Source of the DNA: a virus
IMG/VR virus record: IMGVR_UViG_3300030419_001790
Span: 1 to 22,659 of that record
DNA length: 22,659 bases
Direction: 5' to 3' (one strand)
Positions 2,625 through 22,659 of the stretch are shown here, piece after piece. Under the pieces are notes generated by a model, which did no database searches, was not told the DNA's origin, and saw only the letters and a program-made list of their open reading frames with translations. How positions within the stretch are numbered: position 1 is the stretch's first letter; each line of letters begins with the position of its first letter. The position numbers and the translations under genes are program-made.

Positions 2625-2629
2625 TTAAA

Positions 2630-2953: not shown

Positions 2954-2988
2954 ACCCCCGCCCCAAAATACGTTGCGAAGGTATTCAA

Positions 2989-3420: not shown

Positions 3421-3543
3421 AGTATTCCCCTCATAAAATGAGTGCCCATCGGTTAATATGCTTTTCGTAAGGTGAGGGGAAACCTATGAATCGCAAGCCG
3501 ATGGGCACTCTCTGTAAAATTTTGTTTCCCCTCAAAAAATTAT
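3421..3543 (-). ncRNA. Structured leader before the tail chaperone gene, possible RNA switch
   Basis: The 123-base gap between tail tube and chaperone genes holds a perfect 13-bp inverted repeat, GAGTGCCCATCGG at 3440-3452 and its complement at 3498-3510, enclosing 45 bases. On the transcript the loop carries UUCCCCUCA (3473-3481). It can pair perfectly over 9 bases with UGAGGGGAA (3425-3433), the SD of the chaperone gene. It can also pair over 11 bases with UGAGGGGAAAC (3524-3534), just after the tail tube stop. The two pairings are mutually exclusive, which is the arrangement of a translational switch or attenuator. The pairings are visible in the sequence; the regulatory role is inferred. 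It is not a tRNA, since it lacks a T-arm and a 7-bp acceptor. Confidence 0.45.
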
Positions 3544-4845: not shown

Positions 4846-4858
4846 ATTTATTCTCCTT

Positions 4859-5311
4859 TTAAACTAATATATAGTCTATCGTAATTTCAATCTCTCCAAG
4901 ACCATAAGGAGAAAACAATCCCTCATCCACAGATATGCTTGAAATACTGATTTCTTGTATACCTTTATCGGAATTATCTCCAATACGATAAATTACGTGT
5001 TCAATGTCTTGTATAAGATTATCTATTTCATCTTGAGATTCATCATCACTAAAAACATATGCTCTTATGGTAGCGTCCAAAGTCGCAGTTGTCAAACTTT
5101 GAGAATTAAAATCTCTAATTTCGGTTCCCGCAGATACATATACGCTGGGAAAGTCATTAACTTCGTCTAAAAATCTAACTTGTCTTTCTACGTTATTAAA
5201 AAGATTAGTATTATAAGTATAATCAGAATCAAAACCAGATTCTGCACCATCTATTTCTTTTAGTTGAGTTACTAATGTGTCTATTATATCTGATCTTCTA
5301 GAAGTTGCCAT
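4859..5311 (-). CDS. Tail terminator / tail completion protein
   Basis: The 150-residue protein starts MATSRRSDIIDTLVTQL. It carries the segments NDFPSVYVSAGTE, LDATIRAYVFSDDE and SVDEGLFSPYGLGEIEITID. It has the alternating helix/strand pattern and C-terminal Asp-Glu-Gly-Leu-Phe-x-Pro-Tyr-Gly segment also found in the protein at 19097-19522, so the two are paralogues. The gene sits between the neck protein (TAATG overlap at 5311) and the tail tube, the usual place of the tail terminator that caps the tube and joins it to the head. The acid-rich middle (DDESQDEIDNLIQDIE) is helical. Function is inferred from position and size; the paralogy is seen directly. Confidence 0.65.
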   Translation of the reverse strand: MATSRRSDIIDTLVTQLKEIDGAESGFDSDYTYNTNLFNNVERQVRFLDEVNDFPSVYVSAGTEIRDFNSQSLTTATLDATIRAYVFSDDESQDEIDNLIQDIEHVIYRIGDNSDKGIQEISISSISVDEGLFSPYGLGEIEITIDYILV

Positions 5312-7955: not shown

Positions 7956-7957
7956 GA

Positions 7958-8158
7958 TTATTTACCTTTTTTACCAAAACTAGTTGTTTTAGCTTCTACA
8001 GGCTTAGCTGTTTTAGCTTCAACAGGCTTAGGTGCGTTTGCAGCGTCCCAAGCTACTTTTTGTTCATCAATCAGACCAGGACCCCAACCATGTCGTTCAA
8101 GCCATTTAGAGGCTTCTTCCCAGGATTCCATATCTTTAATTTCTGAAGTTAGTTCCAT
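7958..8158 (-). CDS. Small protein after the capsid gene (unknown function)
   Basis: This 66-residue protein begins MELTSEIKDMESWEEAS. ATG 8158-8156 is chosen because AGGAG lies seven bases upstream; a longer frame to 8176 has no SD. The N-terminal half has a short helical, Trp-rich motif (ESWEEASKWLERHGWGPG). The C-terminus carries a tandem KPVEAKT repeat and a basic end (SFGKKGK). Its place between the major capsid gene and the connector would suit a head decoration or a completion peptide, but no family was recognised. A hairpin at 8178-8207 lies between it and the capsid gene. Confidence 0.7.
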   Translation of the reverse strand: MELTSEIKDMESWEEASKWLERHGWGPGLIDEQKVAWDAANAPKPVEAKTAKPVEAKTTSFGKKGK

Positions 8159-8177
8159 TGTTAATCTCCTAAACACT

Positions 8178-8207
8178 AAAGGGGAGGCAGTTACCCACCT
8201 CCCCCTT
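8178..8207 (-). terminator. GC-rich hairpin downstream of the capsid gene
   Basis: The arms AAGGGGGAGG and CCTCCCCTTT (read on the minus strand) form a 10-bp stem with one G-U pair around a 10-base loop. Only a short T run (TTT, then AGTGTTT) follows, so it is at best a leaky terminator or an RNA-stabilising 3' hairpin. Placed after the most abundant virion gene, it would lower expression of the connector genes relative to capsid protein. Confidence 0.5.
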
Positions 8208-8233
8208 GTGACTCCAAGTTATTATTTAAAATA

Positions 8234-9643
8234 TTAACCAGTCAGTACTTGACAAGCATATGGGTACTTGGTCGAATCAAGAGCCGCATTACTATTAGTA
8301 GTAAGAGCCTTGAAGTCAAAACGAGTACTAAGGTACATCGCAGTGACCTGCTGGCGAGGTTCATACTCGCTCTCAATCTCCATACCCCGACGTTCCGCAA
8401 TCATGAAGCCTGGCTTGTAAACCAAAGCACCAATCTGACGACTGGAACCGCCGACGACATCCAAGAATTCAGTGATCTGAATCGGAATACCGTAGACCGC
8501 GCCGACAGAACCTGTTAGGTAAGTCGCGTTAGGTCCGAACTTATCGACCGTACGGAAATCAGAGGTAGTAACCAAGTTATTATAACCTTCAATAGTGGTC
8601 AAATAAACTAGCTGATCTCCAAGCTGTAGGCCATACTTTCCGAGAGTGCCGCGGGCCGAAGCAATATCCGTAGGATCTGCTTTATCCGAGGCAGAACCCG
8701 TAGTAGCAGAAAGAGATGCGTCAGAGGCGAGTTTAACAACACCTTTGAATACCGCACCATAACCGGTACCTGCTGTAATAGCATTAGTTGGAGCTGCCGT
8801 AAAGCCTGACAAAGCACCTGTACCACGAAGAATGGCTTTATCAATGGCGCGAGCCAATCGACGAGTAGCAGCTGCACGGAGGAAGTCGAGAAGAGGTAGA
8901 ACCGTATCTTCTTCTTCATCCTTGGCAAGATGCGTAGTAGCCATAAATTTATGTGGCGTGAAAGTAACCGCAGAGATGGAGTGCTGATTAGAAGTTGGCA
9001 CACGCGTAGTATCCGCAATGCCTGTGGCAAACGTGCCAGAGGCAAATTGTGCTACATCACCATCAGTATCTTCATCGGCGACTGGTACACGGAAGTTCCT
9101 AGCGTCAACCGCAATGCGATTAAACATAGGAGCAATAACGAGTTGCTGTTCCATTTCCGTGTAAATATTGCTTGAGAAGTTAGAGAGGAATTGATCGACA
9201 GAAGTGATCGCCTTCATGCGAGCACCCATCTTCGTATCGAAAACATCCGCTTTATTCATGCATTTAGCAAGAAGATAGGCATTTGCCATGTCCTTCTCAG
9301 AGAATTGAGATGTATTACGCTGATTCTCTTGATACACCATTTTAGTGTGGGTAAGAGCCGTAACCTCATCTTTATATTTAGCAATCTGGGCTTTGAGTTC
9401 CTCAAGTTCCTCAGACTCCTTTTTAATAGAAGCACCAGTTTCCTGAGCTTTTTCCGCAGCGTCCGACTCCTTCATTACAGCTTCGCCGGTCTTTTCAACC
9501 AACTTGGCTACTTCTGGTTCAGACACTTGCGCGGCTGGAGCAGCTTTCTGTTCGATAGCTTGTTCAGCCGTTTCGACCTTATCAATAGCGGCTTCAGAGC
9601 CTGCGTTAGTAAGATCAATGGTATCTACGACCTGTTCTGCCAT
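8234..9643 (-). CDS. Major capsid protein from internal in-frame start
   Basis: Within the fused frame, ATG at 9643-9641 is preceded by AAGGAGAA with seven bases between AAGGAG and the start, the best SD in the region. Translation from here gives 469 residues starting MAEQVVDTIDLTNAGS. They comprise an Ala/Glu-rich delta-like coiled coil (to about residue 120) and the HK97-fold capsid domain. This would make separate capsid subunits in excess over the protease fusion. Base composition changes at this start: the row 8341-8400 has 34 G+C in 60, whereas the row 10021-10080 upstream has 17 in 60. The capsid identity is family knowledge; separate expression is inferred from the SD. Confidence 0.72.
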   Translation of the reverse strand: MAEQVVDTIDLTNAGSEAAIDKVETAEQAIEQKAAPAAQVSEPEVAKLVEKTGEAVMKESDAAEKAQETGASIKKESEELEELKAQIAKYKDEVTALTHTKMVYQENQRNTSQFSEKDMANAYLLAKCMNKADVFDTKMGARMKAITSVDQFLSNFSSNIYTEMEQQLVIAPMFNRIAVDARNFRVPVADEDTDGDVAQFASGTFATGIADTTRVPTSNQHSISAVTFTPHKFMATTHLAKDEEEDTVLPLLDFLRAAATRRLARAIDKAILRGTGALSGFTAAPTNAITAGTGYGAVFKGVVKLASDASLSATTGSASDKADPTDIASARGTLGKYGLQLGDQLVYLTTIEGYNNLVTTSDFRTVDKFGPNATYLTGSVGAVYGIPIQITEFLDVVGGSSRQIGALVYKPGFMIAERRGMEIESEYEPRQQVTAMYLSTRFDFKALTTNSNAALDSTKYPYACQVLTG

Positions 9644-11149
9644 AGTATCGTTCTCCTTTTCAAAGTATCCGTGAAGCTTAAGAGCCAGACTAATATTTGA
9701 ATCTTCATGTGCCTCACTAGTTAGCTCTTTAAGAGCTTTAATTTTTTGTGTGTAAGTATGAGCAAACTTCTGCTCAATTTCATTCCATTCTGACGATGGT
9801 GTGGTTTTTATGTTAATTAAAGTATTAAGTTGTTCCTGTTGCTGAGGCTCTAAACTTACTGAATCTTTAAATCTGTAGAGCTGTGCCTCTGTTGCGTTAC
9901 AATACTTATTAAAGTCTTGTTTTAGATCTTGAGTAGCTTCACCAAAATTTTGAACTATTAAATCGTATTTGGATCCGATATCCCAGGTATTAACGACAAA
10001 AATGTCATCTGCGTTAACATCAACATTATTATCACAATCTTTTCCTTGTAAGTCAACCTCTAAAAATTTAAAAGTTGGACTTTGGGCGGTTGCAATTTTT
10101 GTGACTTTGTATCTGGTGTTTTGATATTTAACGAAATCACCATTACCAATCCTGGAAGTCTCAGTCGATAGAAGATTTAAAAATGGGATAGGTTGATTAG
10201 GATCTACCTCAATCTCAATATCTTCTTCTTCTTTATCTTTAATATCTTCTTCAATCTCCTCTTCTTTAACCTCAATCTCAAGTTCATCTATACTTGCTTC
10301 AGACACAGGCAATACTTGACCATGACCTTCTGCATGAACAGATTCTTGTTCTGAGGGAGAAAGAGGACGCTCACTGACATCTGCATCTTGGTCAGGACCA
10401 ATTGCATCATGAACTGCTACACCGACCATACTAATTTCATGTGTATGACCATCAGCAGCTTCAAGCACACCGTTTTTAATTTTATGTGCATGGTTAGCCA
10501 TATGAGAGGCATAAGTTGTTACACCATCCATATTCTTATCCATTTCAACAGTATGATAATGACCTTCTGCTAAATCAGTAATTCCAGCCTTAATTTTGGC
10601 AGCTTTCTCGTCTTTAGTTGAGTCATCCTCAGACTTGAATGATTTTACAAAATCTGCATAATCACTATCAGTCTCAAAGCTTTTACGGACACTGAATAAA
10701 GAATCTTGGTTACAAGGTACACTTACAACAGAGATTTCTAACAATTCTACATCAGTAATATACATCGAGTCATCTTCTCGATTATAGTTACCATCTTTAA
10801 CTTTAAAACCGACACTAAAACTCTTAAGAGCGCCGTCCTTTATTAGGGTCTGAATACCGTGGTTATTTTCCGCAGCATCACTAACCGCTGCTTCAACGAA
10901 AATACCTTTTTTATCCACAGTAATCTTATTTACTTTACCAATTGGACAATCGTGTTTATGTTGGTAAAGAAGGACTGGATTGCGTCTGAAGTTATCAACA
11001 CCTTTAGCCCATGCATCGGCAGTAACTATATCACCAGCACGATCTTTTGATGTTGTGTTTGCATAACCAGCAATTTTAAGATTCTTGTCTTTTTTGGACA
11101 TAGAAGCTTTTTCTATTGCGCTGTTTATAAAAAGCATTTTATCCTTCAT
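8234..11149 (-). CDS. Prohead protease / scaffold / major capsid protein fusion
   Basis: One frame encodes about 971 residues. ATG 11149-11147 is chosen because AAGGA lies seven bases upstream; the same frame opens at 11224, deeper inside the portal gene. Residues 20-150 are a U35-type HK97 prohead protease with candidate His at YQHKHD (64/66), Ser at LKSFSVGF (110/112) and Glu at ELLEIS (138). Residues about 200-500 hold a His-rich stretch (GHYHTVE, ANHAHKI, DGHTHEI), a very acidic run (EEEIEEDIKDKEEED) and helical sequence, possibly scaffold. From residue 503 the protein is an HK97-fold major capsid protein with an N-terminal coiled coil (ELEELKAQIAKYKDEV) and capsid segments (RLARAIDKAILRGTG, YGIPIQITEFLD). 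An internal SD and ATG precede this part (see 8234-9643). Confidence 0.87.
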   Translation of the reverse strand: MKDKMLFINSAIEKASMSKKDKNLKIAGYANTTSKDRAGDIVTADAWAKGVDNFRRNPVLLYQHKHDCPIGKVNKITVDKKGIFVEAAVSDAAENNHGIQTLIKDGALKSFSVGFKVKDGNYNREDDSMYITDVELLEISVVSVPCNQDSLFSVRKSFETDSDYADFVKSFKSEDDSTKDEKAAKIKAGITDLAEGHYHTVEMDKNMDGVTTYASHMANHAHKIKNGVLEAADGHTHEISMVGVAVHDAIGPDQDADVSERPLSPSEQESVHAEGHGQVLPVSEASIDELEIEVKEEEIEEDIKDKEEEDIEIEVDPNQPIPFLNLLSTETSRIGNGDFVKYQNTRYKVTKIATAQSPTFKFLEVDLQGKDCDNNVDVNADDIFVVNTWDIGSKYDLIVQNFGEATQDLKQDFNKYCNATEAQLYRFKDSVSLEPQQQEQLNTLINIKTTPSSEWNEIEQKFAHTYTQKIKALKELTSEAHEDSNISLALKLHGYFEKENDTMAEQVVDTIDLTNAGSEAAIDKVETAEQAIEQKAAPAAQVSEPEVAKLVEKTGEAVMKESDAAEKAQETGASIKKESEELEELKAQIAKYKDEVTALTHTKMVYQENQRNTSQFSEKDMANAYLLAKCMNKADVFDTKMGARMKAITSVDQFLSNFSSNIYTEMEQQLVIAPMFNRIAVDARNFRVPVADEDTDGDVAQFASGTFATGIADTTRVPTSNQHSISAVTFTPHKFMATTHLAKDEEEDTVLPLLDFLRAAATRRLARAIDKAILRGTGALSGFTAAPTNAITAGTGYGAVFKGVVKLASDASLSATTGSASDKADPTDIASARGTLGKYGLQLGDQLVYLTTIEGYNNLVTTSDFRTVDKFGPNATYLTGSVGAVYGIPIQITEFLDVVGGSSRQIGALVYKPGFMIAERRGMEIESEYEPRQQVTAMYLSTRFDFKALTTNSNAALDSTKYPYACQVLTG

Positions 11150-12407
11150 CGCTTGTTCCTTCATCAATTTGATTTTCAGACTCTTCGTTGGGAGGTCTGC
11201 CCCCTTGAGTGGCATCCACTGCACTACCTGCTATATTCTGAGGTATTCTGATGCCATTTTCACCATCTATAGATGGATATCCTAATCCGGCTCTTGCTTC
11301 ATTTGGAGTTATGATTCCAGTATTAACAAGAGTCGAATAATAAATACTTTGTGTGCGTTCATCTGGTCTAAGTGCTGGTATTGCTAATTTATCAGGTTTA
11401 ACTTCAACACCATTATTGAAAAACAACATAAACGCACTACAAAACTGATTCAAGATAGGCATTACAGTATGTTGATAAAAGAGTTTTTGATTCGCATCAA
11501 TATTAGCATTATTACCACTCTTTAACAACACATATGGTACGCCTAATGCCTTTGCCATATCTTGTTGAATTCTTTCAATTGAGTTTTCAAAATCAAGTTC
11601 TTGAAACTTTACCGTTGAAAACTGATCTATTTTTAATCCTCCATCTAAAATTGCTGGATGCCTAGCATTATCAAAAATAGTTGTATATGAGTTCCTCCAT
11701 CCTTCTAAAAGTCTCTCTTTAACACGTTTACTAAGAATATTATCAGTAGTAAGAACAAAACCAGGTATAGCGTTATTTTTAAAGAACTGCCTTTGAAAAT
11801 TAATCATATAATAGTAAAGTTCGATTAATCTTAACAAAGGTTTTAACTTACTTGTACCTCTAAAAATACTTGAAGTATTTTCATTAGTTACGTGTATAAT
11901 CTCTTGTGGCTGGAATGTTATAGCTTCGCTTTTTCTTGTCTCCTTATTATAACCAAAAAAATCAGAACTTTGCTGATTGGCAATCATGTAGTTATAATGA
12001 TTAACAAAAGTATGTGGGTCGGGAACTACTTCTACATCATTAGCCGGTAACAAATATAAATCATTACCATCGTAATAAAAAAATGCGTTGCCGTCAAGAT
12101 GAAAATCTAAAAGAGCACGACGGAAAAAACGGACCCTATCCTCAAATGGATTAGGTCGTATATTTAAAAGTTTATTAACTTTTTTAGCGGGGGTATTTCC
12201 TGTGATTTTAAGAGGTGTATCAACACATGCAGATATTACCATTTCAACAGCACGATGTATAATCTCAATTTCTCTATATGCTTGTTCAAAATCAACAATG
12301 GTCTCAGGAGAAGCATAAGGTTCTAATGACGCTATTGATGGTTGTGCAGGATTAAGCTTTTCACTTAACCACTCTCTCCACCTAGGTGTATCTTTAAGTT
12401 CAGCCAA
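11139..12407 (-). CDS. Portal protein (HK97 family)
   Basis: The protein has about 422 residues and matches the HK97/phage SPP1-superclass portal pattern: PYASPETIVDFEQAY near the start, NPFEDRVRFFRRALLD, DGNAFFYY, FRGTSKLKPL (residues 182-191) and FQRQFFKNNAIPGFVL (204-219). The family motif AKALGVPYVLL also precedes the C-terminal helices. The portal is the dodecameric ring through which DNA enters and leaves the capsid. TTG at 12407-12405 is chosen because AAAAGGA lies eight bases upstream. TTG at 12431 is the most upstream alternative but lacks a spaced SD. The start overlaps the end of the HNH gene and the stop overlaps the start of the protease fusion, so the three are translationally coupled. 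The length fits the family. Confidence 0.9.
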   Translation of the reverse strand: MAELKDTPRWREWLSEKLNPAQPSIASLEPYASPETIVDFEQAYREIEIIHRAVEMVISACVDTPLKITGNTPAKKVNKLLNIRPNPFEDRVRFFRRALLDFHLDGNAFFYYDGNDLYLLPANDVEVVPDPHTFVNHYNYMIANQQSSDFFGYNKETRKSEAITFQPQEIIHVTNENTSSIFRGTSKLKPLLRLIELYYYMINFQRQFFKNNAIPGFVLTTDNILSKRVKERLLEGWRNSYTTIFDNARHPAILDGGLKIDQFSTVKFQELDFENSIERIQQDMAKALGVPYVLLKSGNNANIDANQKLFYQHTVMPILNQFCSAFMLFFNNGVEVKPDKLAIPALRPDERTQSIYYSTLVNTGIITPNEARAGLGYPSIDGENGIRIPQNIAGSAVDATQGGRPPNEESENQIDEGTSDEG

Positions 12408-12771
12408 CTGCTTTATCCTTTTGTAGCTCAATCCACTTTTTTACTTTAGGAGCTAAGTGATTTAAATAGTTTTGTCCATACAAAGTATGTAATTTATTAT
12501 GATGAAATTTACATAAAGTATAAAGATTTGATGACTTTAAAAATTCTTTGTTATCTTTAGCAAATTTCACTCTTAGAATTTTTATCATCTCTACACTTGT
12601 AACTTGTTTAAAGTTATTATCAATGCACCACTTCTGCCAAAGTTGAGAAAGGCTATAAAGATGATGAAGCTCTAAATTATCTTTACTTCCGCAAATTACG
12701 CACTTATCACGAGCTTTATAATCTTTTTTAATATAATCACGGACGTATTTAATCGGAAATCTTTTTAACAT
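12400..12771 (-). CDS. HNH endonuclease
   Basis: The 123-residue basic protein carries an HNH/zinc core: CVICG (C24, C27), LELHHLYSLS (H36, H37), LYTLCKFHHNKLHTLYG (C87, H90, H91, H95). The two Cys/His pairs would hold a zinc, and the paired His with the later N/H form the beta-beta-alpha-metal nuclease site. It lies between the glycosyltransferase and portal genes inside the structural block. It may be a homing endonuclease that invaded the terminase-portal junction, or an HNH that helps packaging. The SD is weak (AGATAAAAT before ATG 12771). Its end encodes the portal SD, so it appears built into the operon. Confidence 0.85.
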   Translation of the reverse strand: MLKRFPIKYVRDYIKKDYKARDKCVICGSKDNLELHHLYSLSQLWQKWCIDNNFKQVTSVEMIKILRVKFAKDNKEFLKSSNLYTLCKFHHNKLHTLYGQNYLNHLAPKVKKWIELQKDKAVG

Positions 12772-12797
12772 ATTTTATCTATCTTATCCATTTATTA

Positions 12798-13439
12798 CTA
12801 GTCTGTCCAACCAATATTTTGAAATTTTTTAATCACGTTCCATCTTTTTGTAAAATGATCAGTATCCTTATTTAAACCCACATCCCCTTCTGGTAGAAAC
12901 ATAAATCGACCTGAGGTTAATTTTAATGGTGTTCCCAATCTATGCTTAATTAAATAACTTACAATTATATCATCACCTCTTTCTGGGTAGCCCACTTTTT
13001 GAAGATCTAACTCTATTTCATTAAGTACAGATTGTTTTACTAAAACGCATGATCCGATAATAAAATCAACCTCTTCCGATTCCCAAACATCTTCTAACTC
13101 ATTATAAGCATTAGCGGTATTTACACCTCGTTTACCGTATATACCAGTAATAGGTAAGTTAGATTTTACCATATTTTTTATTAAAGTTATAGATGGTAAA
13201 ATATCGTCATCTAAAATAATTTTATATTCTTCTGGATATTCAAAACAACGAATCCAACGTTCCATACAAAAATAATTTTTATCATTATTTATAACATCTA
13301 CACCATTACCCCAATACGGGAGTAAATAGTCAGGATTATTATTAATTACGGTAATATTTGAAAAAACTTTTCTAAGAGTAAATACAATCTTTTTTACATT
13401 TTCTGGACGTTTATAGTTTAAGATAATTAATCTAAGCAT
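12798..13439 (-). CDS. Glycosyltransferase-like protein (GT-A / GT2 type)
   Basis: The 213-residue protein starts MLRLIILNYKRPENVKKIV, matching the first strand and helix of GT2 nucleotide-sugar transferases (ILNYxRP). It carries an acidic DDD at residues 77-79 (IILDDDILP), the place of the metal-binding DxD motif. Further on it has FIIGSCVLVKQSVL and GYPERGDDIIVSYL, typical of the acceptor half with a catalytic Asp in the D-D-x-x-x pattern. It would transfer a sugar to protein, DNA or a host glycan. It overlaps the large terminase stop by eight bases and lies before the HNH gene, an unusual place for such an enzyme. No signal peptide or membrane helix is present. The family is likely; the acceptor is unknown. 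Confidence 0.72.
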   Translation of the reverse strand: MLRLIILNYKRPENVKKIVFTLRKVFSNITVINNNPDYLLPYWGNGVDVINNDKNYFCMERWIRCFEYPEEYKIILDDDILPSITLIKNMVKSNLPITGIYGKRGVNTANAYNELEDVWESEEVDFIIGSCVLVKQSVLNEIELDLQKVGYPERGDDIIVSYLIKHRLGTPLKLTSGRFMFLPEGDVGLNKDTDHFTKRWNVIKKFQNIGWTD

Positions 13440-14679
13440 AAATAGAAATATTACTCATTTTCTGATGTGTATAAATTGCATATCTAACTGCATCACATGG
13501 GTGAGAAGACCAATCATGAATTGGCTTAGGTTTCTCAGTATTAGGATTCCAACGATATGATGACATAGCAGAAAAAGTATGTGATGCTCCTTCTACATCA
13601 AAATAAAGTTTGTCTTGCTCAATTAAAACTTGTAAAGAAGATATTCCATCATTAACAGATTTAATTGCATTTTCACAATATATATCATAATCAAAAGCAA
13701 AATCAGCTTTTACTTGAGCAGCCGCTGAATCAATATAAATATTATCTATACTCCATTCGTCAACTTTATCTTGAATATTATTAGCTAATTCAGAGGTTGT
13801 AGATTCTTTTGATACAAACTCATCTATTATCCAATACTCATCACCATTTGTACCAATTACTACAAAAACATTCTCATCTCGATAACCAACATCAAGTCCT
13901 GCTATAACTTCGGTAAATCTTTCTCCTACAAATTCACCAATGTGTTTATCTTCATCAAGTGCTTCATACACCTGATCTTCTGTTGTTGTCCATTCACATT
14001 CATACTCCTGTGCAAACATAGCCCTTGACATAGCTTTTTGTGCTTCATCTATATCATTTTGTGATAATAAAGGATTTGAACGATATGTAAAAAGATCACT
14101 ACCCCATTCTGGAAACTCATCATCATTACCTCTAAGATAATAATTATATAAGTAATTACCTTTTCCTCTAGGTGTAGATATCCATAAACATCTTGAGTTC
14201 TCAAATGTTGATAATGCAGGACGTAAGTCTCTTATAAAATATTCATCGTTAGGAATTACCGCTGCTTCATCTACGATTAATAAATTAGCTGCTCGACCAA
14301 TTAACGAATCTCTATTATTAGCAGAAAGCAATCTAAATATAGAACCATTTATAAGTTTTACTACCTTATCTTTTTGATTAAACTTGTCAACTTCAACTCC
14401 TAGATTTTTAATTAAATCAGTAACATAATCCCAGATAATTGAGGAAAGTGAGAAATTAGGAGCAACAACCATAACTTGTTGTCCTGGTTCTAAAAGTTTT
14501 GCAAAAGCTAATATAGATGCAGCATATGATTTACCTGTACGACGCGCAGCTACCTGTACCCAAAAACGATTACTATCTAAACCATAAACCATCGCCCACT
14601 GTGCTTCATTAAATTGAATTGGCGTAGGTAAACGATCTAAAAGTTTTTGAATTTTGAGTTTGAAAAATTTATTTCTCAT
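13432..14679 (-). CDS. terL: Terminase large subunit
   Basis: The 415-residue protein has both domains of a packaging motor. The ATPase shows Walker A AARRTGKS (residues 44-51), Walker B LLIVDEAA (D137, E138) and a coupling-type STPRGKGN near 168. The nuclease shows acidic residues at GLDVGY (D263), YIDSAAA (D317) and HPCDAVRYA (D396). It cuts concatemeric DNA and pumps it into the prohead through the portal. It is preceded by the coiled-coil/TM gene (ATGA overlap at 14676-14679) and overlaps the glycosyltransferase gene at its end. The small subunit is about 4 kb away (18654-19100), separated by fibre genes. The length is normal for the family. Confidence 0.95.
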   Translation of the reverse strand: MRNKFFKLKIQKLLDRLPTPIQFNEAQWAMVYGLDSNRFWVQVAARRTGKSYAASILAFAKLLEPGQQVMVVAPNFSLSSIIWDYVTDLIKNLGVEVDKFNQKDKVVKLINGSIFRLLSANNRDSLIGRAANLLIVDEAAVIPNDEYFIRDLRPALSTFENSRCLWISTPRGKGNYLYNYYLRGNDDEFPEWGSDLFTYRSNPLLSQNDIDEAQKAMSRAMFAQEYECEWTTTEDQVYEALDEDKHIGEFVGERFTEVIAGLDVGYRDENVFVVIGTNGDEYWIIDEFVSKESTTSELANNIQDKVDEWSIDNIYIDSAAAQVKADFAFDYDIYCENAIKSVNDGISSLQVLIEQDKLYFDVEGASHTFSAMSSYRWNPNTEKPKPIHDWSSHPCDAVRYAIYTHQKMSNISIYA

Positions 14680-14978
14680 TTAGGAAAGATTTGCATAATT
14701 GTATAAATAAACCCGGCAACTGCCGTGGTAAAACCGCCTACATAAAAAAGAGTCTTTATTGTTGATTGTCCCTGTGTTGCAAGACCATTTAATATTTGTA
14801 TTTCTTTATGCATCTCATCATGCTGTTTTTGGGCAGAATCTAGCATCTGAAGAATGTTATGATATCGTTCTTCACAAGTTGCTTCATGAGAAGCTATCGC
14901 AAGCTTATTTGCTTGTGATCTCTCATGAAGCACTTCTAGTTCGCTTTGTATTTGATCTAACTCTCTGGTTTCTGCCAT
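14676..14978 (-). CDS. Coiled-coil protein with C-terminal TM helix (XhlA/holin-like)
   Basis: The first 70 of 100 residues form a charged heptad-like coiled coil (LDQIQSELEVLHERS, LQMLDSAQKQHDEMH). A single hydrophobic helix follows near residues 76-96 (FYVGGFTTAVAGFIYTIM) with a short KxK-free end. This is the layout of haemolysin XhlA-type and some class III holin-related proteins, which sit in the inner membrane with the coil in the cytoplasm. It lies between the collar/fibre gene and large terminase and overlaps terL by ATGA. No endolysin is adjacent, so a lysis role is only suggested. It could also be a membrane anchor for packaging. Confidence 0.55.
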   Translation of the reverse strand: MAETRELDQIQSELEVLHERSQANKLAIASHEATCEERYHNILQMLDSAQKQHDEMHKEIQILNGLATQGQSTIKTLFYVGGFTTAVAGFIYTIMQIFPK

Positions 14979-14984
14979 TAGACA

Positions 14985-15782
14985 TTACGTCTTTATGATA
15001 TAGTTTGCTACCTGAGCTGGAAGTGTTAAATTGTGCGTATGACTTGAGGTAGTAACACCGGTAACTGCTGTTGCGGTTGAGGAGTCTTTTGCTGACGTTG
15101 AGAAAGTACCAGTAGTTGTGGTAATACTCTGTGTAGCAGCCGCAGTAGCGACAACAGCTGAAGCAGATGCAGCAGCTGTTATAGCACCTACAGTACCGTT
15201 GTTAGTGCCTTTACCTAAAGGTAAACGATCACGAAGATCTGGTACGTTAAAGGTAGTAGAACCATCTCCTGTACCAAAAGCAGTACTAATAATTGCAAAA
15301 AGTACCGAATAAGTGGATCTAGATATAGCAGCGTCATTGCAAAGCAAATAACCTGTTGGTGCTGTAGCACCTCCGTAAGGTACAATAGTACCAGGGGGTA
15401 CTAGACCACCACCAGCACTATCAGCAACACTACTTGCAGTAAGTGCGCCAGTATTTGCAGTACCACGAACATCAAGATTAAAACCACTTGTGACAGTAGC
15501 ATCACCAAGAATGAGGTTAGCAACACCAGTAGAGCTTACTCGAATCGCTGCGTTTGCAGGAACACCCAAACTGACTGTACTAGCGGCAGGTGCCGTATTA
15601 CCTAGTAAGCCAATATTACCAGTTGCTCCTCGTTCTACAATCGCTCTAAATCCGCCAGCAGCACTACCATCGTGAACCCGGATCTGATCTAAATCGGTGT
15701 CTACTGATAACTCACCAGCGGCACCGGTAAAACTATTATTTTGTGACGTAGTTCCACGTCGAAGTTGTAATTGTGTAGGCAT
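14985..15782 (-). CDS. Tail fibre/collar protein with RRGT N-terminus and tail-collar domain
   Basis: The 265-residue protein begins MPTQLQLRRGTTSQN, the short beta-type N-terminus found on many marine-phage fibres and Mtd-like proteins. Residues about 128-192 match the phage tail collar domain: PPGTIVPYGG, APTGYLLCNDAAISRSTYS, FGTGDGSTTFNVPDLRDRL. The rest is Ala/Thr/Ser-rich with SSHTHNLTLP near the end, like the His-containing tip of collar proteins. It probably helps bind the host surface. SD AGGAG lies seven bases before ATG 15782. It is the last of three fibre genes before the terminase. No reverse transcriptase or variable-repeat pair was seen, so it is not a diversity element. Confidence 0.78.
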   Translation of the reverse strand: MPTQLQLRRGTTSQNNSFTGAAGELSVDTDLDQIRVHDGSAAGGFRAIVERGATGNIGLLGNTAPAASTVSLGVPANAAIRVSSTGVANLILGDATVTSGFNLDVRGTANTGALTASSVADSAGGGLVPPGTIVPYGGATAPTGYLLCNDAAISRSTYSVLFAIISTAFGTGDGSTTFNVPDLRDRLPLGKGTNNGTVGAITAAASASAVVATAAATQSITTTTGTFSTSAKDSSTATAVTGVTTSSHTHNLTLPAQVANYIIKT

Positions 15783-15792
15783 TTAAGTTCTC

Positions 15793-16878
15793 CTATGAAA
15801 GTGCACCCTGATCTACAGTGGCTAATTGATCTGTGGGATCTACTAATAAATTTAATACTGTTACGGTATCTGTTATAATTTGTCCAAATGCGTCGTTTGT
15901 TTCTGTTCCAGTTACAGAACCACAATCTGTATCAGAACCCAAAGTTGTTGCAGGATTTGTAGCGGTAGAAACATTTGTAAATGAAAGAGTGCCTGAACCA
16001 TCTGTTTGAATTACTTGACCGTTATCTCCATCTGCTGTTGGCATACTAAAAGCAACACTATTAGATGTAAGAATAAGTTTACTGCCGTCAGAAGATATAG
16101 ATTCACCAGCATCATGTAACTGAAAGGTAGGTGATCCTCCTGTATCTGTTAATGCTAACCCGGTATCATGAACGTGTGTTAAAACAATTTCATCATTTCC
16201 GCCAAAAGAAATTGTAGCACCATCATGTTGCAATTCTAAATCTTGAGTTAAGGTAACATCACCATCTGCTCCAATTGAAATTGCGTCTGGATCGGAAGCT
16301 GAACCAATTGTACCTGCATCTTTAATTTTAATATCGTCAACAAATGCGACAATACCAGATGAGTCAATAGTCATAGCTGTTGGAGCTGATGCAGAACCTA
16401 TAGTACCATCATCTTTAACAACGATATCATCTACAAAGGTTACAATACCTGTTGAAGCAATAGTAATAGCAGTAGCAGCAGAAGCGACACCAATTGTACC
16501 GCCGTCTTTAATAAGTATATCATCTTTAAAGGTTACGATACCTGAATCAGCAAGTGTCATAACGTCTGCTACAGAGGCATTTCCTATTGTAGCCCCATCT
16601 TTAAGTAAAATATCATCTTTAAATGTGACAATACCACCAGAACTAATTTGCATAGCATCTGTAGCACCCAGAGAACCAATATCACCATCATTAGGTACTA
16701 AGAAACCTGTATGAGCATGTATCGTAGTAGAGGCAAAAACATTACCGGTTACATGAACATTGGCAACTGGATTTATCGCAGCACCAAATGCTATTCTGTT
16801 CTCAGTAGCATGTGCATTTGCTGTATTAGTGATATCTTGTCCGAGACCACCAACAAATTTTCCTACGCGTGTGACCAT
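15793..16878 (-). CDS. Tail fibre protein with 31-residue beta repeats
   Basis: Residues 82-205 of this 361-residue acidic protein are four tandem 31-residue repeats with the pattern GIVTFKDDI-xxKDxxTIG-xAS-xxxxMTI. A partial copy precedes them (DIGSLGATDAMQIS). Later residues (DLELQHDGATISFGGN, TGLALTDTGGSPTFQL) continue the beta style. Such repeats fold as beta-helical or shaft segments in trimeric fibres. The start has AAAGGTGAT eight bases before ATG 16878, and the gene has its own promoter (16908-16936), which is rare inside this block. It is likely a shaft or adapter in the tail fibre. No receptor domain or chaperone was recognised. Confidence 0.65.
   Translation of the reverse strand: MVTRVGKFVGGLGQDITNTANAHATENRIAFGAAINPVANVHVTGNVFASTTIHAHTGFLVPNDGDIGSLGATDAMQISSGGIVTFKDDILLKDGATIGNASVADVMTLADSGIVTFKDDILIKDGGTIGVASAATAITIASTGIVTFVDDIVVKDDGTIGSASAPTAMTIDSSGIVAFVDDIKIKDAGTIGSASDPDAISIGADGDVTLTQDLELQHDGATISFGGNDEIVLTHVHDTGLALTDTGGSPTFQLHDAGESISSDGSKLILTSNSVAFSMPTADGDNGQVIQTDGSGTLSFTNVSTATNPATTLGSDTDCGSVTGTETNDAFGQIITDTVTVLNLLVDPTDQLATVDQGALS
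16264..16635 (-). repeat. Four tandem 93-bp repeats in fibre gene
   Basis: Four in-frame repeats of 31 codons encode GIVTF-like starts and TIG turns. Copies 1 to 3 are most alike in protein and differ mainly at variable positions; the fourth is more diverged, and a degenerate fifth continues as GDVTLTQDLELQHDG. They probably arose by tandem duplication of a beta-shaft unit. Confidence 0.75.
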
Positions 16879-16907
16879 TTATATCACCTTTCGTATAATT
16901 TCAATTA

Positions 16908-16936
16908 AGTATAACTTCACTATAAGATAGTGTCAA
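16908..16936 (-). promoter_or_regulatory. Sigma70-type promoter before fibre gene, with palindromic spacer
   Basis: On the minus strand TTGACA (16936-16931) and TATACT (16913-16908) are 17 bases apart, a near-consensus sigma70 promoter. Start 16878 lies about 30 bases downstream. A palindrome, CACTAT-N3-ATAGTG (16918-16932), overlaps the -35 edge and the spacer and could be an operator. Confidence 0.7.
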
Positions 16937-16945
16937 TTAAAAATT

Positions 16946-17929
16946 TTAAGTATGTGAGACTATTTCTAGACCTACCCCAGCTGTAAATGTAGCTTCTTTG
17001 AATTGCACATTATGAGAGGAGTTAGCTAAAACATATTGGTTTTTAATTTGATATACGCCATCTAGATATACTTCAGTTTCATTTATATCTGCTACAGTTG
17101 TACCTATGTTATATGAATTCGCAGAAGTTGTAGTATAGTGCGCATTTGCAAAACCATCAAGAGCAAGTTTTGAATCTATCTGAGTTTGTACAGCTGAACT
17201 TACGCCATCAAGATATCCAAGCTCAGTTGAGGTAACATCAGATACCGCAATTTTACCAGATCCACTACTTAGTAAAGCACGAGAAGCAGTTAGATCAGAA
17301 GTAGTTACAGTAGAAACTGCTCCTGCAATATTATTAGTGCGCCTAGTCTCCGCTGCAGTAAATTGAGTCTGAATTGCAGAGGTGACTCCATCAAGATACC
17401 CAACTTCAGTTGAAGTAACGGCACTTACAGCTAGCTTACCAGAACCATTAGATATTACAGCTCTATCGGCAGTAAGATCAGCAGTGGTAACTGTAGATAC
17501 AGCACCCGCAATATTATTAGTACGTCTTGTCTCGGCTCCCGTAAACTGTGTTTGGATCGCAGAAGATACACCATCAAGATATCCAAGCTCGGTAGCAGTA
17601 ACATCACTTATAGCAATTTTACCTGACCCATTTGTTACCATCGCTCTTGATGCTGTTAGATCAGAAGTTGTTACTGTTGATACAGCGCCTGCAATATTAT
17701 TAGTACGTCTTGTCTCGACTGCTGCTGCATTAGCAGATACAGTATTTATATTCGAATTAAGTTGTGTAAAGGTTACAAAGTCATTAGCCGCAGATACCGC
17801 CGTTACAAGTTCTGCTTTTGTCATTTTCTTTGTTTGATCAGCACTTATATCGACAATAACAAAGACGTCTGTATCTACTGCATCACCACCTGCAAGAGCT
17901 GTTAAGTCTGTAATTTTTACATTAGCCAT
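16946..17929 (-). CDS. Tail fibre protein with three 61-residue repeats
   Basis: The 327-residue protein has an N-terminus MANVKITDLTALAGGD, common on phage fibre or baseplate proteins that begin with a short adaptor strand. Residues 74-134, 135-195 and 196-254 are three tandem repeats of 61 residues that start RRTNNIAGAVSTVTT and contain ELGYLDGVSSA (or EVGYLDGV). The last 70 residues are different (YNIGTTVADINETEVYLDG) and may be a tip or trimerisation head. ATG 17929 is preceded by AAGAGAG. It lies upstream of the promoter for the next fibre gene. The ELGYLDGV element is frequent in marine-phage structural proteins; a receptor-binding role is inferred. Confidence 0.68.
   Translation of the reverse strand: MANVKITDLTALAGGDAVDTDVFVIVDISADQTKKMTKAELVTAVSAANDFVTFTQLNSNINTVSANAAAVETRRTNNIAGAVSTVTTSDLTASRAMVTNGSGKIAISDVTATELGYLDGVSSAIQTQFTGAETRRTNNIAGAVSTVTTADLTADRAVISNGSGKLAVSAVTSTEVGYLDGVTSAIQTQFTAAETRRTNNIAGAVSTVTTSDLTASRALLSSGSGKIAVSDVTSTELGYLDGVSSAVQTQIDSKLALDGFANAHYTTTSANSYNIGTTVADINETEVYLDGVYQIKNQYVLANSSHNVQFKEATFTAGVGLEIVSHT
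17168..17710 (-). repeat. Three tandem 183-bp repeats in fibre gene
   Basis: Repeats begin at 17710, 17527 and 17344 on the minus strand. In the segment AGAVSTVTT the residues are identical in all three copies but eight of nine third bases vary (for example GCA/GCG/GCA, GGC/GGT/GGA, ACA/ACC/ACT). The protein has therefore been kept while the DNA has drifted. Confidence 0.85.
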
Positions 17930-17941
17930 ATTTTTCTCTCT

Positions 17942-18313
17942 TTACGACACTTGCTGTGCAACTAGGAAGTTATCATCTTGTGTCAAAATATTTTTATCGT
18001 CTTGGCTCATTAGCCGGTCAAAAGGTCTATCTTCATCATTTCGTGCAATTATACGTCCGTCTTGCGTTAATAAGAATCCTCCATCTTGTAACAACAGTAA
18101 CTGTGTAGGTTCAGGTAATAAATCAGATGTTATATCATCATTTGGTTCTACAACTAAAAACGCAGGAGTTAATGGTGTTCCGCGTTTACGTTGACTTATT
18201 AGTACATCGCCATCTTGTGTTAAAAAATATAAAGCATCTGTAACACCACCAGCGTCATGTCCTGGACCATTTACTCCAGAAGAGATGCCTAACCCAAGAC
18301 CGAGGCCAGCCAT
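17942..18313 (-). CDS. Small structural-type protein with LTQDG repeats (unknown)
   Basis: The 123-residue acidic protein begins with a Gly/Leu run (MAGLGLGLGISSGVNGPG). It then has three or four short repeats around L-T-Q-D-G (YFLTQDGDVLIS, FLLTQDGRIIAR, NILTQDDNFLVAQ), each like a beta hairpin. No family was recognised. It starts in a TAATG overlap with the upstream gene at 18313-18315 and is followed by the fibre gene at 17929. Place and repeat style suggest a virion surface or fibre-adaptor protein; this is inference. Confidence 0.55.
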   Translation of the reverse strand: MAGLGLGLGISSGVNGPGHDAGGVTDALYFLTQDGDVLISQRKRGTPLTPAFLVVEPNDDITSDLLPEPTQLLLLQDGGFLLTQDGRIIARNDEDRPFDRLMSQDDKNILTQDDNFLVAQQVS

Positions 18314-18657
18314 TACTTACGCTCGCTTACATACAGCGTGCCTGAGTCACTGCTCCCTATAACACATATAAATTTATCAAACTCACGAACCAATGCCCCA
18401 CCACCAAGAGCTATGTCAAGAAATGTTGTAGCAGGTAAAAAATGCCCATTTGACGTAGTACATGTTACAGCGGAATCACCGGTTTGAATAAAGCAATCTT
18501 TTGTAGAATAAACCGAAATGACGGAGATCGTTTCGGAAATTTCCGGTGAAGTGTTGGCCGAACCTGCTGTAAATGGAACTTGATGTCCTTTACCTGGTTT
18601 TAATCCGAGAACGTTAATTGCTTGGTTTTGACCATCAGCTGGCATTGTTGTCGTCAT
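18313..18657 (-). CDS. Unknown small virion-type protein (beta-rich)
   Basis: This 114-residue protein is Ser/Thr/Gly-rich with alternating beta pattern (ISETISVISVYSTKDCFIQTGD, read in two parts) and an end GSSDSGTLYVSERK. Four Cys residues are spread through it with no zinc motif. ATG 18657 overlaps the small terminase stop (ATGA), so it is coupled to terS. The length and beta pattern would fit a single jelly-roll or Ig-like decoration subunit, but no family match is claimed. Confidence 0.55.
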   Translation of the reverse strand: MTTTMPADGQNQAINVLGLKPGKGHQVPFTAGSANTSPEISETISVISVYSTKDCFIQTGDSAVTCTTSNGHFLPATTFLDIALGGGALVREFDKFICVIGSSDSGTLYVSERK

Positions 18658-19100
18658 TCCATTAAGTCCTTCATTAGCTTATCATAATTGTTAATCTGTA
18701 CCGCAACGGCGGGTCCAGTTGATTTTGGCTTCAATGCTGATTCCACTTCGTGGAGATGTTTCATCCAATCAAGAAGATCTTTTTTCGAATATATGCCTGT
18801 CTCTACGGCGTCTTGAATTTTTTGATCAATCACCTGATTAATCAAATTGATACGCTTGATCCGATTGAGGTAGCCTTGCGTAGCGAATACATTATCAACA
18901 TATGATTTTACTTCTTTCTTCTCAATCACGGATGTGATTCTGTCTTGAGAAACAGCATATTCGTCTGCAATCTCTTCTACAGATTTACCACTGAGATAAT
19001 CATTCGCAATAGCTAATACTACAGGATCGAGCGGAGGAGCTTCGAGTGTCTTATTAAGTGCATCTACTGTAGTAGTTGGTGCAACAGCATTTGAAGTCAT
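18654..19100 (-). CDS. terS: Terminase small subunit
   Basis: The 148-residue protein has an N-terminal helix-turn-helix near residues 25-60 (ANDYLSGKSVEEIADEYAVS, then RITSVIEK), the DNA-recognition part of small terminases. A helical middle (LNRIKRINLINQVIDQKI) is likely to make the oligomer ring. The C-terminal part (NNYDKLMKDLME) may contact TerL. It would recognise the packaging site and feed DNA to TerL. It is the third gene from the leftward promoter and overlaps both neighbours by four bases. Its separation from terL by fibre genes is unusual. An alternative is a plain regulatory HTH protein, but the coupling to a virion-gene operon favours TerS. Confidence 0.68.
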   Translation of the reverse strand: MTSNAVAPTTTVDALNKTLEAPPLDPVVLAIANDYLSGKSVEEIADEYAVSQDRITSVIEKKEVKSYVDNVFATQGYLNRIKRINLINQVIDQKIQDAVETGIYSKKDLLDWMKHLHEVESALKPKSTGPAVAVQINNYDKLMKDLME

Positions 19101-19522
19101 GTATTTTCATCCACATCATATAAAATTTCAACTTCTAAATCTGCAATGCCATATGGCTGAAAAAGTCCTTCATCAGTGCGAAAAGATACTACACGCGCAT
19201 CTGACACACCATTAGCTTTTGCAGCGACATTAGCAGAAAAAGAATCTACCTTTGATTCTACATTTTGTGCGAAAATTTCAGCTGTGTCAATATTATTTTC
19301 ATCAAAAACATAACCACGGAGTGCAACACCTATACTACCTAGCCTCCGATTAGCACCAAGCTCTTCACGACTTTCCGAGCCAGGAGTAAGACAAACAGTA
19401 GGAAAATCATTTATCTCTTCAAGATACTTGAACCGCCTGAACACGTTTGATGCATCGACATCAGGGGCCTGCCCTAACTCGGTAACTAAACCATCAATTA
19501 TTTGTTTTCGTCTGGTTGCCAT
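19097..19522 (-). CDS. Tail-terminator-like protein, paralogue of 4859-5311
   Basis: This 141-residue protein aligns along its whole length with the tail terminator at 4859-5311. Shared points are MATRRKQIIDGLVTEL against MATSRRSDIIDTLVTQL, YLEEINDFPTVCLTPGSE against FLDEVNDFPSVYVSAGTE, LRGYVFDENN against IRAYVFSDDE, and TDEGLFQPYGIADLEVEI against VDEGLFSPYGLGEIEITI. It is shorter by a few residues in the acidic middle. It sits beside terS, about 14 kb from its sister. It may replace the sister in another virion state, serve the head-tail joint, or be a duplicated relic under new control. It overlaps the upstream gene by 25 bases and terS by four. Confidence 0.7.
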   Translation of the reverse strand: MATRRKQIIDGLVTELGQAPDVDASNVFRRFKYLEEINDFPTVCLTPGSESREELGANRRLGSIGVALRGYVFDENNIDTAEIFAQNVESKVDSFSANVAAKANGVSDARVVSFRTDEGLFQPYGIADLEVEILYDVDENT

Positions 19523-19917
19523 ACAATTTCTACCAATTCATCAAGAGTATTACATTTAGCCTGCGCCTTAGTGAATTTTTCACTAAGGCGTGTGTAATCT
19601 TTAACAAGCCATTTTAATATTTCTCGTTTAATTCTATGATCACTAATATCTATAAACTCAGAATCAAACCAACTTTTCCATTCTTCTATTGAAGGTAAGT
19701 ATATATCTAACTCCCTATTATGTTGTGAATCCACTGGAGTATACTGAGGATGTACGGGTGACTGTAATGGTAGACACTGTAGTCCTAATTTATCAATAGG
19801 TATTCTAGCATCATCATACCCAACAGGGGGTAACCCTGGCCACCAATAATTTCCTGTATCATCTTCCGCATCAGGATAGTTAAAAACTAAAGGCCCGTAT
19901 TTAAATTTTTCTTTCAT
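19498..19917 (-). CDS. First gene of the leftward operon (unknown)
   Basis: The 139-residue protein has no recognised family. Visible points are a Trp/Pro/Tyr-rich N-terminal half (GNYWWPGLPPVGYDD) and an acidic/helical C-terminal half (EEWKSWFDSEFIDISDH, then ILKWLVKDYTRLSEKF). It reads as a soluble adaptor. ATG 19917 has GAGGGAA upstream and lies about 22-30 bases after the leftward promoter start point. Its end overlaps the tail-terminator paralogue. Because it is the first gene after the promoter and near terS, it may be packaging- or head-linked, but this is a guess. Confidence 0.6.
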   Translation of the reverse strand: MKEKFKYGPLVFNYPDAEDDTGNYWWPGLPPVGYDDARIPIDKLGLQCLPLQSPVHPQYTPVDSQHNRELDIYLPSIEEWKSWFDSEFIDISDHRIKREILKWLVKDYTRLSEKFTKAQAKCNTLDELVEIVWQPDENK

Positions 19918-19945: not shown

Positions 19946-19974
19946 ATAATACTACTCCTTTCAAAGGATGTCAA
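19946..19974 (-). promoter_or_regulatory. Main leftward sigma70-type promoter with palindromic spacer
   Basis: On the minus strand TTGACA (19974-19969) and TATTAT (19951-19946) are 17 bases apart. This is the best promoter in the window and would drive the structural block starting at 19917. A 6-1-6 palindrome TCCTTT-N-AAAGGA (19956-19968) fills the spacer right after the -35, so a repressor bound there would block the polymerase. Confidence 0.75.
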
Positions 19975-20235: not shown

Positions 20236-20262
20236 TTGACATATAGGGTTGATTGCTATACA
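20236..20262 (+). promoter_or_regulatory. Rightward promoter, TTGACA-N15-TATACA
   Basis: TTGACA (20236-20241) and TATACA (20257-20262) are 15 bases apart, with TGC before the -10 (extended -10). The ten bases GATTGCTATA recur at exactly the same distance from TTGACT at 21674-21700. The short 15-base spacing may be offset by the extended -10. It would drive the HNH gene, whose SD follows. Confidence 0.65.
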
Positions 20263-20291
20263 CTCTTAATCATCGAAACAAGGAGATAGAC

Positions 20292-20693
20292 ATGAGCATT
20301 TCAAGAACAGTTTCCAACGGACGCGATTTCTCAGCCGCCATCAAGCGCGAGGTCCTCGGCGGTTTCTGCGTATGCTGCAAAAAAGAAAAGGCCACGCAGG
20401 TCGATCATTGCCACGCGCTACAGTTCGGCGGTTCCAGCGATATCGACAACGCCACGGCATTATGTGGCCGTTGCCATTTCGAGAAAACCCGCGCCGAGGC
20501 ATCCGCCAAAGACGCGCAAGCCGTCGAGAAAATCATCAAGCGATTTTCCAAAATGACCTTCACGGCAGGTGGCAAGCGTCGGGTGATCGTACCAAGTCGC
20601 GATAGCGAAGCCGCCAAAATGGCAAGGAAAATTTTCCGAGCCAAAATGCAGAAAAATCACAAACTAGGTGCTAAACTCCGGCGCGCTAAGTGA
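20292..20693 (+). CDS. HNH endonuclease (right arm)
   Basis: The 133-residue basic protein has an HNH core: CVCC (C26, C29), VDHCHALQFGG (D38, H39, H41), DIDNATALCGRCHFEKT (N53, C58, C61, H62). The two CxxC pairs would bind zinc and D-H/N/H form the metal site of a nicking or cutting nuclease. HNH proteins of this size next to terminase genes are part of many cos-phage packaging motors; here it is divergent from terS. ATG 20292 is chosen for AAGGAG seven bases upstream, and the 39-base upstream extension of the frame has none. The C-terminal half is basic (AKLRRAK), which suits DNA contact. A stem at 20678-20700 overlaps its stop. Confidence 0.87.
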   Translation: MSISRTVSNGRDFSAAIKREVLGGFCVCCKKEKATQVDHCHALQFGGSSDIDNATALCGRCHFEKTRAEASAKDAQAVEKIIKRFSKMTFTAGGKRRVIVPSRDSEAAKMARKIFRAKMQKNHKLGAKLRRAK

Positions 20694-21836: not shown

Positions 21837-22304
21837 ATGAAAAACGTAACAATCTTTGACCTAGACGGCACTTGCATCAATAGCGAACATCGCCAAGCAA
21901 CATTGCCAGACGGCACGCTTGATCTCGCGCATTGGTTAGAAAACGCAACGCCAGAAAAAATATTTGGCGACACGCTTTTACCGCTTGCCCAAGAGGTTCG
22001 CAGACGACAGAAAAAAGGCGATTTCGTAATTGTCTGCACCGCTCGAAATATGCAAGATGCGGATTTTGAATTTCTAATGAACGAGGGTATCAACCCCGAT
22101 ATGATTTTATCTCGCAAGGTTGGCGACAATCGTGCCGATGGCGAGTTAAAAGCAAATCAGCTTCGGCGGTTGTTCAATCTTCGGCAATTCAAACAAGCGA
22201 ACAAGGTAATGTTCGATGACGCTTCCAGCGTTCGGTCTACACTTCGCAAACTAGGAATTGCTGTTATCCATCCACGCAAATATAATGAAAGGGCTGTGGC
22301 ATGA
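21837..22304 (+). CDS. HAD-superfamily phosphatase
   Basis: This 155-residue protein has the four HAD motifs in order: FDLDGT (D8 nucleophile, D10), VCTAR (T68), K105 (GELKANQL) and MFDDASS (D127, D128). The compact cap and the DNRADGELK stretch before motif III resemble the phosphatase domain of T4-type polynucleotide kinase and phage nucleotidases. Substrates could be 3'-phosphate nucleic-acid ends or small phosphates. ATG 21837 is chosen for GAGGTG five bases upstream and because motif I begins at residue 7; the 25-residue upstream extension has no such signal. It overlaps the PPK2 start by ATGA at 22301-22304, so the two are coupled. Confidence 0.85.
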   Translation: MKNVTIFDLDGTCINSEHRQATLPDGTLDLAHWLENATPEKIFGDTLLPLAQEVRRRQKKGDFVIVCTARNMQDADFEFLMNEGINPDMILSRKVGDNRADGELKANQLRRLFNLRQFKQANKVMFDDASSVRSTLRKLGIAVIHPRKYNERAVA

Positions 22305-22659
22305 ATCACGAATTACAAAACTATATTCGCTTAAACGAATTGGCCGAGCGTATCCACGCCAGCGGTCAGCGTGTTGCGGTTGTTTTAGAAGGGCGAGATG
22401 GTGCTGGCAAATCTGGCACAATTCGCAAGCTAACTAAATACTTGCCACCCTACACGTTTCGGGTTCAGCAATCTTTTAAGCCTAACAAATCCACCATGAA
22501 AAACTGGTTGCCATCATGGGCGAAAAAAATGCCACGCCAAGGCGAGATTGTTTTTTATGATCGGTCTTGGTATTCTCGCGCTTTGCTTCAGCCTGTCATG
22601 GGCTGGTGTTCTCAAATTGCGTATGAGAATTTTATGGATGCGGTTACATATTGGGAAAA
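22301..22659 (+). CDS. ppk2: Polyphosphate kinase 2 (PPK2), partial at right edge
   Basis: The visible 119 residues are the N-terminal half of a PPK2 enzyme. Walker A is GRDGAGKS (residues 31-38) after RVAVVLE, Walker B is FYDRSWYSRA (D87), and VMGWCSQIAYENFMD follows, matching the family's VMGFCTxxEYExF. PPK2 moves phosphate between polyphosphate and nucleoside mono- or diphosphates. Class I enzymes make polyP or NTPs, and class II and III act on NMPs. The N-terminus is short before Walker A, typical of the single-domain form. It is the second gene in an ATGA-coupled pair with a HAD phosphatase. The lid and C-terminal part lie outside the window, so subclass is not fixed. Confidence 0.93.
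   Translation, partial: MNHELQNYIRLNELAERIHASGQRVAVVLEGRDGAGKSGTIRKLTKYLPPYTFRVQQSFKPNKSTMKNWLPSWAKKMPRQGEIVFYDRSWYSRALLQPVMGWCSQIAYENFMDAVTYWE

Follow-up and report, generated by a model that had tools for sequence, protein, structure and literature searches.

A PPK2 gene at the end of a phage contig

Is the gene interrupted by the end of this viral contig a genuine polyphosphate kinase 2 (PPK2), and what would a phage gain from such an enzyme? The DNA analyzed here (the window) is a 22,659-nucleotide stretch of a linear viral contig, whose final 359 bases hold an ATG-started frame (22301-22657, + strand) lacking a stop codon before the contig end. A sequence-only reading had identified this gene as PPK2 by its GRDGAGKS, DRSWYSRA, and VMGWC segments. 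All three were found, and the identity was upheld by Pfam PPK2 (PF03976), which matched the 119-residue fragment with 91.9 bits (E 5.7e-26; gathering score, 22.3 bits) over profile positions 13-126 of 229. A six-frame search gave the same result, and TIGR03707 (class I PPK2) was the best NCBIfam family for the gene. In the PDB, the fragment matched 18 distinct sequences, the named ones all being PPK2 or polyphosphate (polyP) phosphotransferases. A closer match to another P-loop kinase was also checked, and the best non-PPK2 hit, dTMP kinase, was marginal (E 4e-4).

Scanning viral contigs with PPK2 yielded 60 relatives. Two of them, L002 and L003, are 89% identical to the window's part of the gene and carry it whole and unbroken (208 amino acids), which completes the reading frame and shows no frameshift in its second half; the complete L002 protein scored 155 bits with PF03976, above the gathering score. 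The record that contains L003 (G002, analyzed in full as L197) shares its gene order with the window, mostly at 80-98% identity, across HAD and PPK2, HNH, tail genes, terminase, portal, and capsid. Since this collinearity runs from PPK2 through the head genes, the contig end is phage DNA, as the earlier placement of the gene had implied, and a host origin of this end was ruled out. Comparison of the window with L002 gave a dS of 0.48 and a dN of 0.07 for PPK2 (dN/dS of ∼0.15) and a dN/dS of ∼0.04 for the HAD gene, while five further close pairs of phage PPK2 genes ranged from 0.04 to 0.16; another pair, L040/L042, was mis-registered and left out. The PPK2 gene is under purifying selection. The features of the window are listed in Table 1.

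Table 1. Features of the window that bear on the PPK2 gene
Feature	Position	Strand	Basis or remark
Leftward head and tail module (tape measure, protease-capsid, portal, terminase)	3..19917	-	Marks DNA as phage
HNH endonuclease, head of rightward gene block	20253..20693	+	PF01844 E 8e-7; kept in G002
HAD phosphatase, Pnkp 3'-phosphatase type	21837..22304	+	PF25109 E 6e-7; phrog_415 E 4e-26
PPK2 gene, 5' part	22301..22659	+	PF03976, TIGR03707; 119 codons, truncated by contig end
Beta strand and Walker A, VAVVLEGRDGAGK	22373..22411	+	Catalytic D33, K37 (L002 numbering)
Walker B DRSWYSRA, Ser at class-marker position	22559..22582	+	Alignment; class residues per PMC8776046

Other features of the window were recorded alongside. 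Prohead protease and major capsid protein form a single 996-amino-acid frame with a long acidic middle (8234-11224, - strand), of which a relative carries a 912-amino-acid version (L191:16397-19135). Between the terminase and an HNH-like gene lies a 213-amino-acid protein (12798-13439, - strand) that resembles a short glycosyltransferase and has no match in Pfam or PHROG. Two divergent promoter-like pairs with perfect TTGACA and 17-base spacers (19946-19974, - strand; 20236-20264, + strand) sit where the leftward structural genes give way to the rightward PPK2 block; across the window, the count of promoters and terminators was not above that of shuffled sequence. No RNA families were found in the window.

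By its marker residue, the phage enzyme falls outside the three PPK2 classes

Class I PPK2 enzymes convert NDPs to NTPs, class II enzymes convert AMP to ADP, and class III enzymes act on both NMPs and NDPs. The residue that follows Walker B marks the class: Asn in class I, Gly in class II, and Glu in class III (PMC8776046, PMC11641546). At this position (N122 in the numbering of Francisella FtPPK2) the window and 66 of 66 phage members have Ser, which places the phage clade outside all three classes by that marker. With TIGR03707, L002 (180.4), L174 (171.5), and L051 (150.4) scored below the class I equivalog cutoff of 301.8; among bacterial fragments, the Ser-type L066 scored 250.1 and the Asn-type L087 scored 325.4. 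The Gly-Ala-Gly form of Walker A, proposed earlier as the mark of a divergent subgroup, did not hold up, because the Gly of GRDGAGK occurs in many ordinary class I bacterial enzymes, in a sample partly drawn using that motif. The informative differences are instead GKS, Ser after DRSWY, and GWC. The divergent subgroup itself, with its short N terminus, stands as a separate Ser clade of compact proteins (∼205 to 213 amino acids).

Databases tend to give this branch another name. The sole PHROG match of the phage PPK2 is phrog_761, "thymidylate kinase," and its best BFVD match is a long phage protein of the same name. This label was rejected: TIGR00041 (thymidylate kinase) gave just 19-25 bits against a cutoff of 83.25, and dTMP kinase reached E 9e-4 versus 4e-53 for PPK2 families.

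Catalytic residues are kept, whereas the nucleotide pocket is changed

We aligned the 66 distinct phage members and read their active sites in FtPPK2 numbering; lid residues, which lie beyond the window's end, come from the relatives alone. Translation and alignment place D33 and K37 of L002 at D62 and K66 of FtPPK2. These two residues, together with D117, R118, R178, W186, K187, and D192, are invariant (66/66), and so are the PPK2 motifs Walker A DxxGK, Walker B RSxY, and the lid Arg and Lys. K228 is replaced at most by Arg in 65 members, and R232 is kept in 60. Other positions of the proposed polyP pocket of FtPPK2 (PMC4748334) vary: an R174 equivalent is missing in 26/66 members, a K229 equivalent is mostly missing, and H76 is Tyr or Phe throughout. 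An AlphaFold model of L002 (m9038a96dc766; pLDDT 88, pTM 0.87) had FtPPK2 with bound polyP (5ll0) as its best structural match (TM 0.91, rmsd 1.7), and the phage protein is thus predicted to have the PPK2 fold.

These data bear on a PPK2-derived kinase that has lost the use of polyP and now takes phosphate from ATP or another donor, as a thymidylate kinase does. The common fold of PPK2 and thymidylate kinase, the two database names, and the partly different polyP channel would all accommodate such an enzyme. We nevertheless regard it as unlikely, given the disparity of the family scores and the invariance of the K66, R118, and R178 equivalents, which are required for polyP binding: K66A, R118A, and R178A substitutions in FtPPK2 weakened it (PMC8776046).

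The nucleotide pocket region of FtPPK2 has been placed between D117 and F132 (PMC4748334). Within it, all 66 phage members carry the changes N122 to Ser, E127 to Gln, and F132 to Trp, at positions where Ser-type bacterial enzymes have Ser, Glu or Gln, and Tyr or Phe. As these Ser-Gln-Trp changes are fixed in the phage clade, ADP/GDP specificity is not to be assumed, and the altered pocket suggests an acceptor preference that differs from ADP/GDP.

PPK2 is an accessory gene next to a HAD phosphatase

In the window, as in L002, the end of the HAD gene and the start of PPK2 overlap in the sequence ATGA, in agreement with the shared operon proposed from the sequence, and the two genes overlap or abut also in the distant L050-L052. 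Against the PDB, the HAD profile best matched Pnkp1 (E 0.0018), and a phage polynucleotide kinase followed (E 0.013). Its invariant residues (D8, D10, R19, T68, R70, K105, D127, and D128, with D101 nearly so) correspond, in their order and roughly in their spacing, to those that are essential in the T4 Pnkp phosphatase. Gene overlap and Pnkp-type motifs would suit a nucleic acid end-healing pair in which PPK2 acts as 5' kinase and HAD as 3' phosphatase. This pairing is nonetheless the least probable of the alternatives weighed here, since PPK2 lies outside the Pnkp kinase family, the genes stand apart in most phages, and HAD also occurs alone, as in the 14 loci described next.

The idea of an obligate HAD-PPK2 pair was given up after a strong start. 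Of 43 first-group loci whose upstream sequence extends for 3.5 kb or more, 41 have HAD upstream of PPK2, often several genes away. In contrast, 14 newly fetched HAD loci that continue for 3 kb or more downstream, by selection ones not previously fetched through PPK2, all lacked PPK2 within 3-10 kb downstream. These phages thus carry HAD frequently, and often without PPK2, whereas PPK2 is accessory. Being on phage DNA and accessory within its lineage, PPK2 qualifies as an auxiliary metabolic gene.

Its accessory nature and its position beside variable small genes would also fit counterdefense, i.e., the refilling of nucleotide pools after host defense enzymes have broken down dNTPs or ATP; the chemistry would be identical. 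We deem this role very improbable; PADLOC returned nothing beyond a trivial P-loop match, and membership of PPK2 in a defense system was dismissed on the same result. A nucleoside deoxyribosyltransferase-like gene, with a Pfam score below the cutoff, occurs at most seven genes away in 20/52 loci. Small HTH genes resembling sigma-70 region 4 (cluster c2/c0, e.g., L038:7429-7770) are repeated many times per phage genome, with 114 copies around PPK2 in the set.

A syntenic relative and several carriers encode nucleotide synthesis genes

The window terminase is ∼40% identical to those of T5-like phages, and its protease-capsid protein is ∼34% identical. The carriers of PPK2 are large, probably marine phages. 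A syntenic 173.5-kb contig (G027), whose tape measure, capsid, portal, terminase, and HAD proteins are 34-71% identical to those of the window, encodes NrdA, NrdB, ThyX, dUTPase, DNA polymerase A, a DnaB-like helicase, and Hsp20. A second carrier set (L148 onward) has Hsp20, phage lysozyme, MazG, and NAD-dependent ligase, with ribonucleotide reductase (RNR) in several. Among 17 phage records, all fragments, RNR is present in 7 and no nucleoside diphosphate kinase (NDK) was found. As RNR is common in large phages and most records are fragments, its co-occurrence lends weak support to a nucleotide role.

G027 ends just 5' of the PPK2 position in the near-identical relative L065, and G026, from a different metagenome, ends at the same base (L064 and L063, respectively). 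The window's own end also falls inside PPK2. Strain variation at this gene may break assemblies. By eye, the 173-kb relative also has several consecutive proteins of radical-SAM appearance (CxxxCxxC), accompanied by small partners and resembling a peptide or sugar modification cluster (L186:19407 to L187:6958), and a block of nucleotide-sugar and glycosyltransferase-looking genes (L188:6768-17961).

A single phage clade with mostly marine bacterial relatives

A profile scan of IMG/VR returned at least 203 viral loci of the PPK2 family, a lower bound because the scan was motif seeded; PPK2 is not rare in phages. In a tree of 157 rows, built by a quick method without bootstrap, all 66 distinct Ser-type phage sequences fall on one side of a branch of length 1.14 (SH-aLRT 100). 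The 24 Ser-type enzymes of bacteria that nest with them come mainly from marine groups (SAR202, Marinimicrobia, Luminiphilus, Porticoccaceae, and SAR86), and the nearest bacterial relatives are ∼35-43% identical to L002; the quick method and the long phage stem leave the exact sister group uncertain. Asn-type PPK2s from huge phages, Moraxella phage Mcat6 (a match in an unannotated part of its record), the gut, and L053-L061 lie outside the Ser clade, indicating that phages acquired PPK2 more than once. A search of isolated phages for Ser-type PPK2 found just Asn-type or distant ones.

A separate bacterial PPK2 group was noted as well. At 24 loci (L092-L144; Parvibaculum, Acidocella, Ferrovum, and others), the Walker B Asp is replaced by Asn (NRSWYN), and in 24/24 an Asp also follows the Lys of Walker A (GKDG), whereas GKG goes with DRS in 29/29 others. 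By these motifs, the catalytic Asp appears to have changed places.

Proposed function

Two-subunit RNRs produce dNDPs. Together with the undetected NDK and the NDP-to-NTP activity of class I enzymes, this makes transfer from polyP to (d)NDPs the most likely reaction. We therefore favor, as a reasonably probable function, a compact PPK2, closest to class I, that moves the terminal phosphate of polyP onto NDPs, most likely including dNDPs. Host polyP would be the donor, the reaction would run from polyP toward the nucleotide, and the acceptors would be (d)NDPs, among them most likely the dNDPs supplied by the RNR that the phage itself encodes. The phage would thereby obtain (d)NTPs without spending ATP or depending on host Ndk. 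Family membership, the catalytic and most polyP-contact residues, purifying selection, the phage context, and the dNTP synthesis genes of a relative count for this function; the altered pocket, the differing polyP-channel positions, and the TIGR03707 score of 180 against 301.8 count against it.

The enzyme could mainly work in reverse, storing NTP phosphate as polyP and so altering the phosphorus storage or stress state of the host. PPK2 reactions are reversible, polyP synthesis by some class I enzymes is documented (PMC8776046), and viral ppk has been proposed to cause polyP accumulation (PMC13188868). We consider this direction improbable, because a replicating phage needs NTPs, and the RNR, ThyX, and dUTPase genes of the relative indicate nucleotide supply. 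A bolder extension of polyP-to-nucleotide transfer, which we put forward as a possibility on the doubtful side, is that the Ser-Gln-Trp clade forms a fourth functional class of PPK2, specialized in phages for converting dNDPs or dNMPs to dNTPs with host polyP. DNA synthesis would then be fed by a storage polymer rather than by ATP and host Ndk.

If the enzyme is active, hundreds of phages would draw on host polyP to fund nucleotide synthesis, and phage replication would be tied to marine phosphorus storage. The clade is one subfamily, open to testing and marked by three fixed residue changes in the nucleotide pocket, which the database name thymidylate kinase would hide. A polyP-driven kinase of ∼205 amino acids would, if it accepts dNDPs, have practical value in nucleotide regeneration.

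Comparison with earlier reports and known PPK2 enzymes

Viral ppk1/ppk2 have been described as auxiliary metabolic genes (PMC9636769, PMC13188868), reportedly also by Li et al. in 2025 (Water Res 268:122678, cited there). Expression of ppk2 by lytic viruses is on record (PMC9636769), as is viral ppk2 from reservoir sediments (PMC13188868, where reference is also made to work on polyphosphate kinases encoded by viruses in sludge). Like the present genes, those PPK2 genes sit on viral contigs; some of those reported earlier are transcribed. Unlike the present clade, they appear in the accessible portions of both sources as annotation counts, without subfamily, signature, or genome context. Our literature search, which covered sources outside subscription journals, found no biochemistry of a phage PPK2. 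As far as these sources show, the new points are that the phage enzymes form one clade, that this clade is compact and has a Ser-Gln-Trp signature and the genome context given above, and that it goes under the name thymidylate kinase.

Among characterized enzymes, the phage protein is closest to class I PPK2s (FtPPK2, S. meliloti SMc02148, and P. aeruginosa PA0141), with which it shares the P-loop fold, Walker A and B, the lid Arg, the Trp-Lys pair, and most polyP-contact residues. It differs from them in Ser rather than Asn after DRSWY, in the Glu-to-Gln and Phe-to-Trp pocket changes, in its small size and short N terminus, in a score under the TIGR03707 cutoff, and in an overall identity of ∼34%. 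PPK2s of huge phages (634-735 kb) and Mcat6 are also found on phage records but, unlike the Ser clade, are Asn type with a class I signature. The Ser-type enzymes of marine bacteria, the sister group in the tree, share Ser at the class-marker position with the phage proteins, yet they have Tyr or Phe where phages carry Trp and a longer C-terminal part.
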